The notes under the pieces are model-generated. The model did not search any database. It saw nothing but the letters and a program-made list of their open reading frames with translations, and was not told where the DNA came from. A stretch of DNA of 64,000 bases from Leptotrichia buccalis C-1013-b (GTDB taxonomy: Bacteria > Fusobacteriota > Fusobacteriia > Fusobacteriales > Leptotrichiaceae): positions 1,922,001 through 1,986,000 of the forward strand of contig NC_013192.1 of NCBI RefSeq assembly GCF_000023905.1, written 5' to 3'. Below are positions 33,329 to 51,674 of this stretch, one piece after another. Numbering within the stretch: the stretch's first letter is position 1; each line of letters begins with the position of its first letter. A program made the position numbers and the translations under genes.

Positions 33329-33405
33329 TGGCGTCCCCGGTTGGACTCGAACCAACGACCCTCTGATTAACAGTCAGATGCTCTAACCGGCTGAGCTACG
33401 GAGAC
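33329..33405 (-). tRNA. tRNA-Asn (GTT)
   Basis: A 77-nt cloverleaf on the minus strand. The acceptor GTCTCCG pairs with CGGGGAC, the anticodon loop CTGTTAA gives GUU, the T-arm is GGTTCGAACC, and CCA is encoded. It is the last gene of the rRNA operon, 16 bp after 5S. Confidence 0.97.
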
Positions 33406-33420
33406 ACACAAAAGAAAAAA

Positions 33421-33534
33421 GTTTGGCAACTACCTATTTTCCCGGGACGAATCCAAGTATTTTAGGCGTAAACAGACTTAACTGCCGGGTTCGAAATGTA
33501 ACCGGGTGTATCCCTGCTGCTAACATCACCAAAC
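33421..33534 (-). rRNA. 5S ribosomal RNA
   Basis: About 114 nt on the minus strand. The ends GTTTGGTGATG and GCCAAAC pair, and the conserved CCCGGCAGTTAAG and loop-E region GGGAAAATAGGTAG are present. It lies 66 nt after the 23S 3' end and before tRNA-Asn. Confidence 0.95.
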
Positions 33535-33599
33535 TTCAAGAATTAAATTGTCAAGTTAAGACAATGAGAAATAAATAGTAGTAGTAAAAGATTAACTAA

Positions 33600-36503
<2,904 letters not shown>

Positions 36504-36573
36504 AGAATAACTTTTACTCTAGTTTATTGTAATCTTTTACCTACTATTCATTTCCCATTGTCCTAAATATAAT

Positions 36574-36649
36574 TGGTGGAGATAAGCGGGTTCGAACCGC
36601 TGACCTCTGCCTTGCAAGGGCAGCGCTCTCCCAACTGAGCTATATCCCC
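36574..36649 (-). tRNA. tRNA-Ala (TGC)
   Basis: A 76-nt cloverleaf on the minus strand. The acceptor GGGGATA pairs with TATCTCC, the anticodon is TGC in CTTGCAA, and CCA is encoded. It lies in the 16S-23S spacer, downstream of tRNA-Ile. Confidence 0.97.
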
Positions 36650-36665
36650 AAGACTTTAATTAATA

Positions 36666-36742
<77 letters not shown>

Positions 36743-36778
36743 AAAAGACATAAGAAGAAGCAGTGTTTGTTACTCCTT

Positions 36779-38292
<1,514 letters not shown>

Positions 38293-45699: not shown

Positions 45700-46530
45700 T
45701 CAGTTATATAAAATTCCAAATTTTAACATTACAAACAATATTATAAATGCTACTGAAAAACCTAGCAGTCCTCCAGCCAGAACTTCCCGAATACTATGAA
45801 TCCCAGATTTGACACGGCTTTGTGCCACTAAAGCAGCCATAAAGAAACCTAAAACTAAAATTCTTATATCTGATGTCATAAAAAGCAAAATCCCAAAAGC
45901 AGAAAAAGCTATTGCACTATGTCCACTAGGCATACCACCTTCAAGTGGAGTTCCCTTTTGAAAAAATGATTTTAATACGATAACTAAGATTGAAACCAAA
46001 ATTAGAATTAAAATTGCAATATTTCCCTTTCTTCCTGCAATAACATGCAACTTATTTTTTCCGTCAAAAATATCAAGCAATTTATCATAAAACAGCAGAT
46101 ATCCCACGCAAATGGCATTTATCGCAGCAACCAGTACAGCTCCAGCCGCAACATCCTTAGCCAGTTTTGCCAGCGGATGTCTTTCAGGCGAAATCAAATC
46201 AACAAGTGCCTCAACCGCTGTATTTATAAGTTCTGTAATTATTACAAAAGACACAGACAATGAAATTATAAGAATTTCCACTTTACTCGCATTTATTACA
46301 ATTGCCAGAATTACAATAATAATTGCAGAAAGTATGTGAACTTTCATATGTTTTTCATTCTGTAATGCCGAAATCATCCCCTCAATTGCAAAATTAAAAC
46401 TATCTACCAGTCTTTTGTCTCTTGCTCTCTCCTTTTTTATATCCCATTTATACCTATCTTTCCTATGAAACAAGGAAAATATTGATTTTCTCCCTTTTTT
46501 ATTTTCTCCATCTTTATTTTTTTTCGCCAA
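45700..46530 (-). CDS. DagK-type lipid kinase fused to PAP2 phosphatase domain
   Basis: The product is 276 residues. After a basic cytosolic head, residues 40-155 form a DgkA/undecaprenol kinase domain with three helices and the signature ITELINTAVEALVDLISPER, then KLAKDVAAGAVLVAA. Residues 165-276 form a PAP2 domain with PSGHSAIAFSA and SRVKSGIHSIREVLAGG. The PAP2 first motif reads Kx6TP instead of Kx6RP, and the last acid is Glu instead of Asp, so phosphatase activity is not assured. The start is TTG at 46530 with AGGAGC upstream. It is the last gene of the pgpH-ybeY operon and probably handles C55 lipid carriers or diacylglycerol. Confidence 0.88.
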   Translation of the reverse strand: MAKKNKDGENKKGRKSIFSLFHRKDRYKWDIKKERARDKRLVDSFNFAIEGMISALQNEKHMKVHILSAIIIVILAIVINASKVEILIISLSVSFVIITELINTAVEALVDLISPERHPLAKLAKDVAAGAVLVAAINAICVGYLLFYDKLLDIFDGKNKLHVIAGRKGNIAILILILVSILVIVLKSFFQKGTPLEGGMPSGHSAIAFSAFGILLFMTSDIRILVLGFFMAALVAQSRVKSGIHSIREVLAGGLLGFSVAFIILFVMLKFGILYN

Positions 46531-46552: not shown

Positions 46553-47014
46553 TTATCTTTTATAATTAAATTTACTCAAAATTTCTTCTTCCCGTTTTCT
46601 CATAACAACTTTGTCTTGCTCTTCAATATGATCGTATCCCAATAAATGTAACATTCCGTGACACAAAACATAATAAAATTCCCGCTCATCAGAATGTCCA
46701 TATTCACTAGATTGTTCTTTCACACGCTCGATTGAGATTACAATATCGCCAAGCATATTCACTGCTCCGAAATTTTCTGTTTCATTGTATGCAAAGGAAA
46801 TTACATCGGTTGGAGCATCTTTTTGACGGTATTCACAGTTTATTTCCTGAATTTGCTCATTTGTTGTAATTAATAATGATAAATAGTATTCATTTTTGTC
46901 AAATTCTTCCTTGTATTCGTCTTTTAAAATGTAACCAACAAATTCCTTTATTTTTTCTTCATCAAAGAAATTATCAATTTTTTCAATATCATAAGTTATA
47001 TCAATATCCAGCAT
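46553..47014 (-). CDS. ybeY: Endoribonuclease YbeY
   Basis: This zinc-dependent RNase acts in 16S rRNA 3' maturation and ribosome quality control. The zinc motif HGMLHLLGYDH (H3xH5xH form) is complete, and DVISFAYNE precedes it. The ATG at 47014 is preferred over the one at 47026 because GGAG lies inside the intervening codons at a good distance; this gives 153 residues. It lies between pgpH and the DagK-PAP2 gene, a widespread Gram-positive gene order. Confidence 0.94.
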   Translation of the reverse strand: MLDIDITYDIEKIDNFFDEEKIKEFVGYILKDEYKEEFDKNEYYLSLLITTNEQIQEINCEYRQKDAPTDVISFAYNETENFGAVNMLGDIVISIERVKEQSSEYGHSDEREFYYVLCHGMLHLLGYDHIEEQDKVVMRKREEEILSKFNYKR

Positions 47015-47035
47015 AGTTTTCTCCATTTTTTAGTT

Positions 47036-49084
47036 TTAATTTTTTTTCATTTTTTCATCCATTTTAGGATATTTTATTCTTTCGTGATAAACACCTTGTA
47101 ATGTATTTATAAATGATTGGACTACTTTTTCTATTTCTCCTAAAGTCAAGTCAGAATCACTTAGCTGCTTGTCGTCCATTTTTGATTTTACTAAATACCT
47201 TATAAAATTTTCAATTCCTTCCTTGCTTTTGTTTTCAAGCGTTCTTGTAGCGGCCTCCACCGTATCTGCCAACAAAATAATTCCTGATTCCTTCGTTCTA
47301 GGTTTAGGCCCGCTGTATCTGAAATTGCTTTCTACCACTTCTTCTCCGTTTTCCAACGCTTTATAATAAAAATACTGTGTTAAGGTTGTTCCGTGATGTT
47401 CCAGTATTACATCTAAAATCTCTTTTGGCAATTTATTTTCTTTTCCCATAATGTAGCCGTCTTTTGTATGCGAAGTCAGAATTAATGCACTTAACGACGG
47501 TTTTATCTTATTATGTGGATTTACTCCATCTCGCTGATTTTCTACAAAAAATTCTGGACGTTTCATTTTACCTATATCATGATAATATGAAGCAATCCTT
47601 GCAAATGTAGCATTTGCACCAATACTCTCAGCCGCTCCTTCCGCCAGCGCTCCAACCATTATACTATGATGAAAAGTTCCAGGAGCCTTCATAAGCATCT
47701 GTTTAAGCAATGTATGTGAAAAATCGCTCAGTTCCAGCAATTTCATCGTTGTAAGAATTTCAAAGTAATCTTCAAAATACGGCAATACCGCAAGTGACAA
47801 CATTCCAGTCAAAACACCTGAAAATACTGAAAATACTATCATTAACATCATCAGCCCAAAGCTTGACTGGTTAACAAGTCCATAACTAAATGACATCAAA
47901 GCCTGAAATATCCCCAAAAAGAAACTTAATTTTACAATATCACTTCTGCTTACAAGGCTTGCAGCTTTATAAATCGCAACTAATGAAACTGCTATTGTAA
48001 CTAAAAACCAGGATTCTTCCCGCGATAAAATAATCATATTGGAAAATGTCATTATAATTGCGTAAACTCTATTTCCTAGAATTGTAGAAATAATCGGAAG
48101 CATTGCAAATGGAAGTAAATAAATAAAAAATTCATTGTTCAAAAACAAAATATAGATGGTGTTTACAAACATTATTGTGAGAAGTGTCGGATAAAACGCT
48201 TTCGATTCTACAACTTTTTTCGCGTTTTTTCTGAGTAAATAATAAATTAAAATCATAAGAAGCGAAAATGTAGCAGCAAGTCCAACTATTTTTCTGAACT
48301 TGTCTCCATTTCTTACCAGATTTAACTTTTCCAGCTTTAAAAGCGCATCTGAATCAATCGTCTCGCCTTTTTTTACAATAATGTCTCCTTTATAAATCTT
48401 AATTTCCTTATCCCTTAACGACATCATATTATCTGCAATTTTTTTCTTTGTAGCCTCTTCATTAATAACCAGATTTGGCTTTATAAAATTTTGCAGCACT
48501 TTCATATCCAGATTATCAGCTTTTATATCTTTTTTTCGTATTATTTTTGACAGATTTTCCATTTTATAAATTCCATCACTATAAATTTCTGATATAATGT
48601 CCGTCAGATTTACAGAATACTCAACATTTTCAGTTCTTGCCTTTATTTCCTTAATATCCTCAACCGAAAACGTGTACTTATTATCTTTTATATACCCTTT
48701 AATCGCTGCATCATCAGATAAATTTCGTACATCACGTAAAAATTTGTTAAGCGAAATTATAGTTTCTCTATTCACATCCTTCAGTTTATCAAATTCAGGC
48801 TGTGTCGTTTTCATTATTTTTTCTTCAATGCTGTCATCTAAAATATCCACAAAATAAGATACATTTTTATATGCTACAATATCAGATTTTGCAATGCTTC
48901 CAACAACATAATTAACATTTAATCTTGACATTTCAATAACTACACCAAATATCATAAATGTTATTGTCAAAATAATAAACCTGAAAGTAAATCTGTTTTT
49001 GATGTTAAATTGAGTTTCCTTAGTTTTTGCATTTTTTTCTTTTACTTCAAAAACGAATTCCCTCCCTAATACATCTAATCTCAT
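47036..49084 (-). CDS. pgpH: 7TM-HD domain phosphohydrolase, PgpH family
   Basis: The product is 682 residues. There is one N-terminal helix (about 32-52), an extracytoplasmic 7TMR-HDED domain (about 53-260), seven membrane helices (about 265-440) and a cytosolic HD domain. The HD domain has APGTFHHSIMVGALAEGAAE, ARIASYYHDIGKMKRPEFF, LILTSHTKDG and ILEHHGTTL. Listeria PgpH and Bacillus YqfF of this layout hydrolyse cyclic di-AMP. The HD residues look intact, so the same activity is likely. It heads the pgpH-ybeY-dgk operon. Confidence 0.92.
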   Translation of the reverse strand: MRLDVLGREFVFEVKEKNAKTKETQFNIKNRFTFRFIILTITFMIFGVVIEMSRLNVNYVVGSIAKSDIVAYKNVSYFVDILDDSIEEKIMKTTQPEFDKLKDVNRETIISLNKFLRDVRNLSDDAAIKGYIKDNKYTFSVEDIKEIKARTENVEYSVNLTDIISEIYSDGIYKMENLSKIIRKKDIKADNLDMKVLQNFIKPNLVINEEATKKKIADNMMSLRDKEIKIYKGDIIVKKGETIDSDALLKLEKLNLVRNGDKFRKIVGLAATFSLLMILIYYLLRKNAKKVVESKAFYPTLLTIMFVNTIYILFLNNEFFIYLLPFAMLPIISTILGNRVYAIIMTFSNMIILSREESWFLVTIAVSLVAIYKAASLVSRSDIVKLSFFLGIFQALMSFSYGLVNQSSFGLMMLMIVFSVFSGVLTGMLSLAVLPYFEDYFEILTTMKLLELSDFSHTLLKQMLMKAPGTFHHSIMVGALAEGAAESIGANATFARIASYYHDIGKMKRPEFFVENQRDGVNPHNKIKPSLSALILTSHTKDGYIMGKENKLPKEILDVILEHHGTTLTQYFYYKALENGEEVVESNFRYSGPKPRTKESGIILLADTVEAATRTLENKSKEGIENFIRYLVKSKMDDKQLSDSDLTLGEIEKVVQSFINTLQGVYHERIKYPKMDEKMKKN

Positions 49085-49136: not shown

Positions 49137-51605
49137 CTATTTCATTCTTTTTAAAATATTACTTTTACTTTCGATCACCTTGTTTTGTGGCAAAACCGTC
49201 AAAAACTTCTTCCCATACATTTTTTTTATTATCCTGTTATCAAGAATTATAATATTCCCGCTGTCAGTTTTACTTCGTATAAGCCTTCCAACTCCCTGCT
49301 TAAACTTAATTACAGCTTGCGGAACCTGATAGTCATTAAACGGATTTTGTCCATTTTTTCTAATATTTTCAATAATTGCCTCAGTTACAGGATCATTTGG
49401 CACTTTAAACGGCAATTTTGTAATAATTACTGATTTCAGCTGTTCTCCCTGCACATCGACACCTTCCCAAAAGCTGTCTGTCCCAAATAATATTGGATTT
49501 TTAGAATTTTTAAATATTTCTATCATTTCATGTCGTGGAAAGTCATTTTGCTTTATAAGCGTATATTCCTTTTCTGAAAAATGTGATTTTAACTGGTTGT
49601 ACAAAAAGTTCAAGGCACTGTATGAAGTAAATAATAAAAAACAATGTCCTTTTGTACTTCTTATAGCCTCTTCAATAAATCCAGTTAAATCCCTCATAAA
49701 TTCAATATTTGTTGGATCGAGTGCATCTTCTGGAATATAAACTTTCATTTGTTTTTCATAATTAAATGGAGATTTTACAATTCTTTCATCTATTTTCCTT
49801 CGATTTTCCTTCATAAGCCCAATACTTTTTTTATAATAGTCAAACTTATTGTCAACAGCAAGTGTTGCTGAAGTAAAAACCATCCTATCCATTTTTGTAA
49901 ACAAATTATCATTCAGTTCATCCGAAATATCAAAAGGCGTTGCATATAATTTTACATTTGGACGGACTGTAGTAACATTAGCCCAGTAAACATACCCTTC
50001 TTCTTTCCCTTCCAAAATAAACTCAAATTTCTTATAATACTGCTTCAATCTTTCATAGTATCTTGAAAATTCAAATAAAAAACCCTCTTTGTCTTCTAAA
50101 TTATAATTGCTCACAGTATTTAAAAACTTGTTAATTCTTATAACTAAATTTCCATAACTTTCCTTAAATTGTCTGTTAATTTCCATAACTTCACGAAAAT
50201 CCTTGTTACTTCGCATTTTCTGCTTATCAATCTTTATCTTGATTTCCCTGTTGTCATTATTTTCCGAAAAAAGATAAATCAATTTATCAAAAATATCTAT
50301 CCCTTTATCGTAAAATACGTTTAATTCCGCAATAACATCTTCCTTCAATTCATCAACTTTTTCATATTCTTCACTTGAAAGACTTTCATTCAAATAAGTC
50401 ATTAACCTAACAATAGCCCCACCATTGCTGGAATTTACGACACGTCTATTATAAATATTCCCCATAAGCCGTCCAAATGATATTTTTGACGTTTCAAAAG
50501 TAAAATAATTTCGAGCCGTATCTTCTATATTGTGAGCCTCATCAAAAACAACAATATCATAATTTGGCAAAATTGAATAATTTGTATAAAATCCTGTCTG
50601 ATTTCTAATTGCTAAATCTGCAAAGAACATATGATGATTAACAATAAGAAGTGTTGCATCCGCAATATTTTTTCTAGCATTAAAAAAGTGGCATTTTGAA
50701 TAATACGGACACTTTACTCCTTTACACATATCCGCTTCACTATTCACTTTTTCCCAGATACTGTTTGAAATTTCGTATTTTAGCTCATTCCTGTCACCTG
50801 TTCTTGTAACATTTTTATCCCAGTCAATAAGATTTCTTATAATATTTTTTTCAGTTTTTTCCTCTTCCGTATCTGTTTCCTTCTCTGTAACATCTATATT
50901 GTAAAGTTTTCTCTTACAAAGATAATTCCCTCGTCCCTTTACAATCTGATAATTAAAGTCCTCATCAATAATTTTCTTTAAAAGCGGAATATCCTTATTA
51001 ATAAGCTGTTCCTGCAAGTTAATCGTATTTGTGGAAACAATCACCTTTAGATTATTTTCAATGGCATAAAGCAATGTTGGCAACAAATAGGCAATCGTCT
51101 TTCCCGTCCCAGTTCCAGCCTCTACTATAAGTTTCTTATTCTCATTCATACTATTTTCAATAAACTTAGCCATCTCATACTGCTCACGTCGTACCTCAAA
51201 TTTTCCAAAATTCTTATGAATAGCCCCATTTTCACCAAAATATTCATCCACATCTATTTTTATAAATTCTTTTAAAGGTACAATCACATAAATATCATCC
51301 ACAGCATTATTCACAATGTATGAAGCTCCGCCAACTTCCCCATACATGCTGGAAATACTCACATCTTCATCAGAAGGAATTAGCACTCCAGACGGATGAT
51401 TATGTATTATAACTTCATTTTTTCTCATCATATTTAATAATGCAGCAACAGAACTGGAATTTCCTCTCGCAATAACTTCGACTGCAGAAACAAGCCCCTC
51501 TCCATCAGGAATCCCTCTGAAAAAGACTTCATTCCCGCCAGATTCACTGATTTCCAAACGCATATCTTCCATTGCCTTTGCACTAATAAATTCAGCAACT
51601 TTCAT
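49137..51605 (-). CDS. DinG-family helicase with N-terminal JAB (RadC-like) domain
   Basis: The start is the ATG at 51605 with AGGAGG just upstream, giving 822 residues. Residues 1-115 form a JAB/MPN-type domain with Glu26, then IIHNHPSGVLIPSDEDVS, a full E/HxH/SxxD metalloprotease motif as in RadC. Residues 135-822 form a DinG/XPD-type superfamily 2 helicase: Walker A VEAGTGTGKT, cysteines in YLCKRKLY and MCKGVKCPYYSKC (likely Fe-S cluster), VFDEAHNIEDTA, and GVGRLIRSKTDSGNIIILD. DinG unwinds DNA and R-loops. Bacillus DinG carries a DnaQ-like exonuclease at this end instead. It precedes pgpH by 52 bp. Confidence 0.92.
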   Translation of the reverse strand: MKVAEFISAKAMEDMRLEISESGGNEVFFRGIPDGEGLVSAVEVIARGNSSSVAALLNMMRKNEVIIHNHPSGVLIPSDEDVSISSMYGEVGGASYIVNNAVDDIYVIVPLKEFIKIDVDEYFGENGAIHKNFGKFEVRREQYEMAKFIENSMNENKKLIVEAGTGTGKTIAYLLPTLLYAIENNLKVIVSTNTINLQEQLINKDIPLLKKIIDEDFNYQIVKGRGNYLCKRKLYNIDVTEKETDTEEEKTEKNIIRNLIDWDKNVTRTGDRNELKYEISNSIWEKVNSEADMCKGVKCPYYSKCHFFNARKNIADATLLIVNHHMFFADLAIRNQTGFYTNYSILPNYDIVVFDEAHNIEDTARNYFTFETSKISFGRLMGNIYNRRVVNSSNGGAIVRLMTYLNESLSSEEYEKVDELKEDVIAELNVFYDKGIDIFDKLIYLFSENNDNREIKIKIDKQKMRSNKDFREVMEINRQFKESYGNLVIRINKFLNTVSNYNLEDKEGFLFEFSRYYERLKQYYKKFEFILEGKEEGYVYWANVTTVRPNVKLYATPFDISDELNDNLFTKMDRMVFTSATLAVDNKFDYYKKSIGLMKENRRKIDERIVKSPFNYEKQMKVYIPEDALDPTNIEFMRDLTGFIEEAIRSTKGHCFLLFTSYSALNFLYNQLKSHFSEKEYTLIKQNDFPRHEMIEIFKNSKNPILFGTDSFWEGVDVQGEQLKSVIITKLPFKVPNDPVTEAIIENIRKNGQNPFNDYQVPQAVIKFKQGVGRLIRSKTDSGNIIILDNRIIKKMYGKKFLTVLPQNKVIESKSNILKRMK

Positions 51606-51674
51606 CTTTCCTCCTATAGTAAAGATTTTACTATATAATAGGCTTTTTTTCAACTTTTCTTTTTAAAAATATAG

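Follow-up and report, generated by a model that had tools for sequence, protein, structure and literature searches.

RadC is widespread in bacteria and has no agreed function. To our knowledge, no activity has been described for any RadC-type JAB domain, and the JAMM enzymes that have been characterised biochemically are peptidases. According to a published hypothesis, RadC-type JABs are nucleases, and a groove for a ubiquitin tail is judged unlikely in them (PMC5512222, PMC3482391). The idea covered both RadC and toxin JABs in 2012 (PMC3482391) and was drawn from positions resembling those of nuclease domains on DinG (PMC5512222). The combination of a JAB domain with DinG had been noted by 2017 (PMC5512222), and a 2025 review named the subgroup RadC-like DinG, gave Desulfuromonas soudanensis as the example, modelled zinc at the site and stated in its main text that no research had yet been done on it (PMC11981726). 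In the same main text, the JAB domain takes the position held by nuclease domains in ExoDinG and EndoDinG; YoaA, which has no JAB domain, works with HolC, whereas the examples given for RadC-like DinG come from genomes without a HolC partner; and pExoDinG shows, on a different fold, that an N-terminal enzyme domain on DinG can lose its metal site (PMC11981726).

We compared with these systems a gene from the window, which is the whole 64,000-nucleotide stretch of Leptotrichia buccalis DNA that was analysed. The architecture is already known, and the protein is a further member of RadC-like DinG: an N-terminal JAB domain with a centre of one E, two H and one D sits on a DinG helicase with four Fe-S cysteines, Walker A and a DEAH box. 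Domain order, JAB E/H/H/D and a full Fe-S helicase similar to YoaA all agree with the published description (PMC11981726), and related loci from Desulfuromonas and Geobacter were recovered in our analysis. The main text of the review makes no mention of Fusobacteriota, of dead or deleted JABs or of gene neighbours; we found neither the dead and deleted forms nor the co-loss map and neighbours described here in the available parts of PMC5512222, PMC3482391 and PMC11981726 (supplement of the last excluded), and a literature search for RadC, DinG and Fusobacterium together returned no paper. The features are given below, where dead lineages are those in which the JAB domain has lost its E/H/H residues.

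49137..51605, minus strand: JAB-DinG (RadC-like DinG) gene, 822 aa, ATG at 51605
51270..51605, minus strand: RadC-like JAB domain, residues 1-112 (end approximate), from the AlphaFold2 model, fold matches and a profile match to 2QLC
51528..51530, minus strand: E26, JAMM glutamate, invariant across phyla and gone in both dead lineages
51459..51470, minus strand: A46-R47-G48-N49 motif, a candidate part of the active site; it hardly varies in intact domains, and both dead lineages lack R47 and N49
51396..51404, minus strand: H68-N69-H70, JAMM HxH, putative metal ligands, from motif reading and cross-phylum alignments
51363..51374, minus strand: S78-x-x-D81, JAMM SxxD; dead lineages retain S78 and partly D81
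51096..51116, minus strand: Walker A GTGTGKT of the helicase, residues 164-170, from motif reading
50916..50918, minus strand: C230, first Fe-S cysteine, from motif reading
50691..50726, minus strand: C294, C299 and C305, remaining Fe-S cysteines, from motif reading
50532..50543, minus strand: DEAH box, residues 355-358, from motif reading
49185..49676, minus strand: Helicase_C_2 domain, residues 644-807, from Pfam
47036..49084, minus strand: neighbouring PgpH/YqfF-like HD-domain membrane protein, same strand, 52 bp downstream of the JAB-DinG gene, named from sequence reading
46553..47026, minus strand: neighbouring YbeY-like gene, named from sequence reading

An alternative frame begins with TTG at 51653, 48 bases upstream of the ATG, and is longer by 16 residues. 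A promoter and terminator scan gave no signals above those of shuffles. Elsewhere in the window, a 276-aa frame (45700-46530, minus strand) reads by eye as one protein that joins a DgkA-type kinase-like segment to a downstream PAP2-like phosphatase segment, and positions 33332-38292 (minus strand) hold a complete rRNA operon with 16S, two tRNAs, 23S, 5S and one tRNA. The closest matches of this 16S gene are Cetobacterium, Fusobacterium and Ilyobacter at 84-85%, in keeping with Fusobacteriota.

Residues 1 to about 112 are predicted to form a JAB/MPN fold nearest to RadC (2QLC) and Rpn11. AlphaFold2, supplied with 39 natural sequences, modelled the JAB core at a mean pLDDT of 88.2; Foldseek placed the 2QLC RadC chains best, followed by CSN5, Rpn11 and other JAMM proteins (PfJAMM1 among the nearest), and VIA-align superposed the model on Rpn11 (Z 9.7, 102-104 residues, rmsd 2.5-3.6) and on RadC (Z 9.2, 102 residues, rmsd 3.0). 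The predicted fold together with E/HxH/SxxD corresponds to the JAMM/MPN+ class. The initial annotation had claimed a JAB fold with a complete JAMM signature at this end, and both were borne out, with E26, H68, H70, S78 and D81 present and invariant across phyla. On the single sequence, PF04002 scores 19.6 bits (E=9e-4), under its cut-off of 22.1, which would favour a chance motif or a fused or misread frame. That reading is refuted by cross-phylum orthologues that share frame, fold and ligands, and we consider its probability negligible: a profile of ten such relatives reaches 2QLC, a RadC structure, at E=3e-7, and all ten match PF04002. With RadC (YicR; PF04002/TIGR00608) the domain shares the JAB fold, the HNHPSG...PS..D signature and its top Foldseek match. 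Unlike the window's protein, RadC has an N-terminal part of its own and no helicase, its JABs form a separate clade, and its structure carries an 8-residue insertion after the stretch corresponding to the ARGN motif. RadC models score 14.3 and 18.2 bits on the window's protein, below cut-offs of 133.85 (TIGR00608) and 180 (PRK00024).

The C-terminal ~690 residues of the 822-aa protein are unmistakably a complete Fe-S DinG/XPD helicase, as had been annotated. Walker A, the DEAH box and all four Fe-S cysteines are in place, and Pfam matched Helicase_C_2 (E=6e-50) as well as DEAD_2. The NCBIfam scores for YoaA (599 bits) and DinG (500/445 bits) all lie under the equivalog cut-offs of these families; the top-scoring helicase model, YoaA NF053712, reached 598.7 bits against a threshold of 680. 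The full-length predicted model (pLDDT 88.7, pTM 0.85) matched E. coli DinG 6FWR in Foldseek at E=3e-44, along with S. aureus DinG 9II8 and 8ZEF. Like ExoDinG (DnaQ-DinG; S. aureus 8ZEF/9II8, B. subtilis), the protein carries an accessory, putatively metal-dependent domain, and it does so at the same end of DinG, in agreement with the earlier comparison with the exonuclease of Bacillus and Staphylococcus DinG. The ExoDinG exonuclease has an unrelated DEDDh fold and ExoDinG helicases form their own clade; the N-terminal domain in the window, being a predicted JAB fold, is not a DnaQ-type exonuclease.

A phylum survey, queried with the whole protein and thus dominated in score by the helicase part, found a DinG-family match in 93 of 98 Fusobacteriota genomes, nearly always as one gene per genome; JAB-DinG is usually the sole close DinG relative. 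Judged at the aligned motif positions (E26 H68 H70 S78 D81), the domain is intact in 75 of 92 readable genomes, dead in six and missing from 11, so that 75 of the 81 domain-bearing proteins share all five residues. These counts leave out genome G074, whose gene is broken by stops, and include as intact the domain piece of G067, whose gene is split over two contigs. The expectation that the fusion would occur across Fusobacteriota with conserved JAMM residues thus held for most genomes and failed in the six proteins without E/H/H and the 11 genomes without the domain; non-conservation, which would have spoken against a functional unit, is confined to side branches, and the finding stands in qualified form. 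In the broken gene (G074:C1:943018-945454, L097, f4 g15) there are several stops.

Outside this phylum, a profile search detected the fused domain in 11 of about 98 genomes at 80-141 bits, where RadC proteins score below 30 bits, and E/HxH/SxxD never varies in the cross-phylum alignments. Scanning named genomes added 80 loci from many phyla, and those of readable length are DinG fusions; the scan was selected on HNHP, which biases HxH conservation there, and the phylum survey and profile search are less biased. Carriers of the fusion include Nitrospinota, Dadabacteria, Geobacteraceae/Desulfuromonadales, KSB1, Calditrichota, Hydrogenedentota, Acidobacteria and a spirochaete. Recent or Fusobacteriota-specific recruitment is therefore rejected, and the alternative module that the initial annotation took to be recruited belongs to an old, multi-phylum and already published fusion. 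Spread via phages or plasmids was also rejected: the phage collection contained no match to the JAB part, the plasmid collection a single one, in a chromosome-sized Fusobacterium record, and the viral contig matches were to RadC or to further proteins that lack the DinG Walker A. That record, the 2.1 Mb Fusobacterium vincentii "plasmid" NZ_CP084075.1 (L041), has five 16S-like places and a degenerate JAB-DinG, and looks like a chromosome. Viral contigs L098/L235 and L101 contain frames of 2808 and 3345 aa, giant multidomain proteins with a RadC-like HNHP near residue 1660, and three Fusobacteriota loci (G063:C20:14365, G064:C3:109440, G056:C84:7376; f4 g17) carry RadC domains in frames of 874-877 aa, possibly mobile-element polyvalent proteins.

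Trees of both parts are consistent with one old fusion. In the JAB tree, a branch with 100/100 support separates the fused JABs, as one clade, from RadC JABs. The helicase tree was rebuilt without four long rows, the version that included E. coli DinG and further long rows being unstable near the root. It gathers the 31 Fusobacteriota rows, JAB-bearing or not, into one clade (support 100) and places the other JAB-DinG rows on one side of a branch (99), as it does ExoDinG (99) and the YoaA-type helicases (69). Three changes of the JAB label are required, which fits a single fusion plus two deletions within Fusobacteriota; because the tree is unrooted, gain and loss outside this phylum are equivalent in it, as are the possible JAB ancestries relative to ExoDinG and YoaA-type helicases.

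Inside Fusobacteriota, the metal site died twice independently and the domain was deleted twice, with the helicase retained; this loss, set beside intact relatives in one phylum, distinguishes the series from pExoDinG. The six dead proteins belong to two lineages. Three genomes of the window gene's own genus have D/R/Y in place of E/H/H, and the g19 genus has S, then R or K, then T or A, with which F. vincentii (L041) agrees, so that both lineages carry R or K, a basic residue, in place of H68. Both dead lineages have lost the strongly conserved residues I19, N25, E26, F28, R47, N49, A55, H68, N69, H70, S72 and G73, and both retain E64, L75, P77, S78, D79 and I117. Since the same residues were lost twice, we infer from these alignments that R47 and N49 may be part of the active site. 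Genus g16, which lacks the domain, groups as sister of the dead genus g19 (support 100), which suggests that decay may have preceded deletion in this line. Walker A is intact in helicases whose JAB domain is dead or absent. One JAMM-dead gene of the window's genus (G006:C1:1357972-1360436, L033) is split into two overlapping frames, through real decay or sequencing error.

Dead domains still score 62-125 bits with the profile. Nei-Gojobori omega values for the JAB part, which are rough given the high dS and the short domain, were mostly 0.05-0.2 (up to 0.29) between intact pairs, 0.31-0.37 from intact to dead and 0.13-0.27 within dead groups, suggesting that constraint may have relaxed around the loss of the site and then continued. 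Because dead domains remain under purifying selection, part of the JAB role may be structural; because the domain was dispensable in two dead and two deleted lineages, its reaction is probably not essential. A standalone RadC occurs in 96 of 98 Fusobacteriota genomes, all JAMM-dead ones among them. Replacement of RadC by the fused JAB is thus rejected, and what the fused domain does is not just what RadC does.

The genes around the fusion differ between lineages. In Fusobacteriota, pgpH-like and ybeY-like genes commonly accompany JAB-DinG, with related genes in seven loci, and one genus (g27) has a full radC 2.2 kb upstream in the order radC, ricT, methyltransferase, JAB-dinG, pgpH-like, ybeY-like. 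At six Desulfuromonadales loci, RadC lies 0.65-2.1 kb downstream on the same strand (two tested, both over the cut-off); since a single ancestral arrangement probably accounts for all six, we reckon the RadC link at about two events. Ten loci, mostly KSB1/Calditrichota, have a gene for a TIGR04122-like MBL exonuclease immediately upstream of the fusion gene or overlapping it, on the same strand, and an eleventh has it at a distance of one gene; the two tested score 194-212 bits against TIGR04122, below the cut-off of 325. The MBL exonuclease and radC links are found in some lineages only, and neither was seen around the window's gene.

We infer that the JAB domain binds zinc, that it is catalytic, what type of substrate it takes and that it assists the helicase without powering it. 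The XPD-type Fe-S motor would move on single-stranded DNA, and the RadC-like JAB would act as a single-zinc hydrolase on what the motor exposes, most likely cleaving a nucleic acid or nucleotide linkage and standing in for the DnaQ-type exonuclease of ExoDinG. Our best guess is a nucleic acid substrate rather than a protein, and the chances that the domain is a zinc hydrolase whose substrate is nucleic acid laid bare by the helicase seem about even. We count in favour the fold and ligands, cross-phylum invariance, the single JAB clade, purifying selection, the ExoDinG/EndoDinG-like position, the MBL exonuclease and RadC neighbours and the retention of the helicase when the domain is dead or absent; against it count the restriction of known JAMM activity to peptidases, the lineage-limited neighbour links, the dispensability of the domain in dead and deleted lineages, the continued constraint on dead domains and the near-universal standalone RadC of Fusobacteriota. 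The initial annotation had called RadC a puzzle linked to DNA repair and competence; literature cited by PMC11981726 disputes the repair link. The annotation's metalloprotease is a putative label, the published hypothesis for RadC-type JABs being a nuclease (PMC5512222, PMC3482391), and the action on R-loops that it suggested is conjectural.

Alternatively, the domain could have genuine peptidase or isopeptidase activity and trim DNA-bound or DNA-crosslinked proteins that the helicase meets on its way, as its E/HxH/SxxD ligand set and the nearest solved folds besides RadC, the JAMM peptidases Rpn11, CSN5 and PfJAMM1, would allow. Its sequence is RadC-like (HNHPSG...PS..D), however, and belongs to the type of JAB in which a ubiquitin-tail groove is considered unlikely (PMC5512222, PMC3482391); the nameable recurrent neighbours also include DNA-processing genes, with no ubiquitin-like gene noticed among them, and we hold this account to be unlikely, if still worth serious attention. 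It is more doubtful again that the main task of the domain is to bind nucleic acid or a partner and to steer the helicase, with catalysis secondary or absent. Purifying selection that persists after loss of E/H/H in two lineages, the profile scores of dead domains and the parallel change of H68 to R or K are what such a role would leave, and binding has been proposed for the pseudo-exonuclease in the main text on pExoDinG (PMC11981726), yet in by far the most lineages and phyla the ligands never vary, a constancy that binding by itself would not require. As a tentative proposal, well short of even probability, the fused JAB would be a JAMM-fold nucleic-acid hydrolase with a zinc site and the unusual companions R47 and N49, cutting the helicase-exposed strand in a pathway shared with RadC and the MBL exonuclease, and would have decayed twice to a metal-free binding domain and been deleted twice in one phylum.

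The fused form ties a domain of the RadC kind to a helicase of known type. In Fusobacteriota, the series of intact domain, dead site and deleted domain, with the helicase always retained, supplies natural controls for the role of the JAB, and the losses shared by the dead lineages mark residues to mutate. Nucleic-acid hydrolysis is a reaction not established for the JAMM fold; if the JAB domain does cleave nucleic acid, this would be a new reaction class for the JAB fold and a candidate explanation for RadC.
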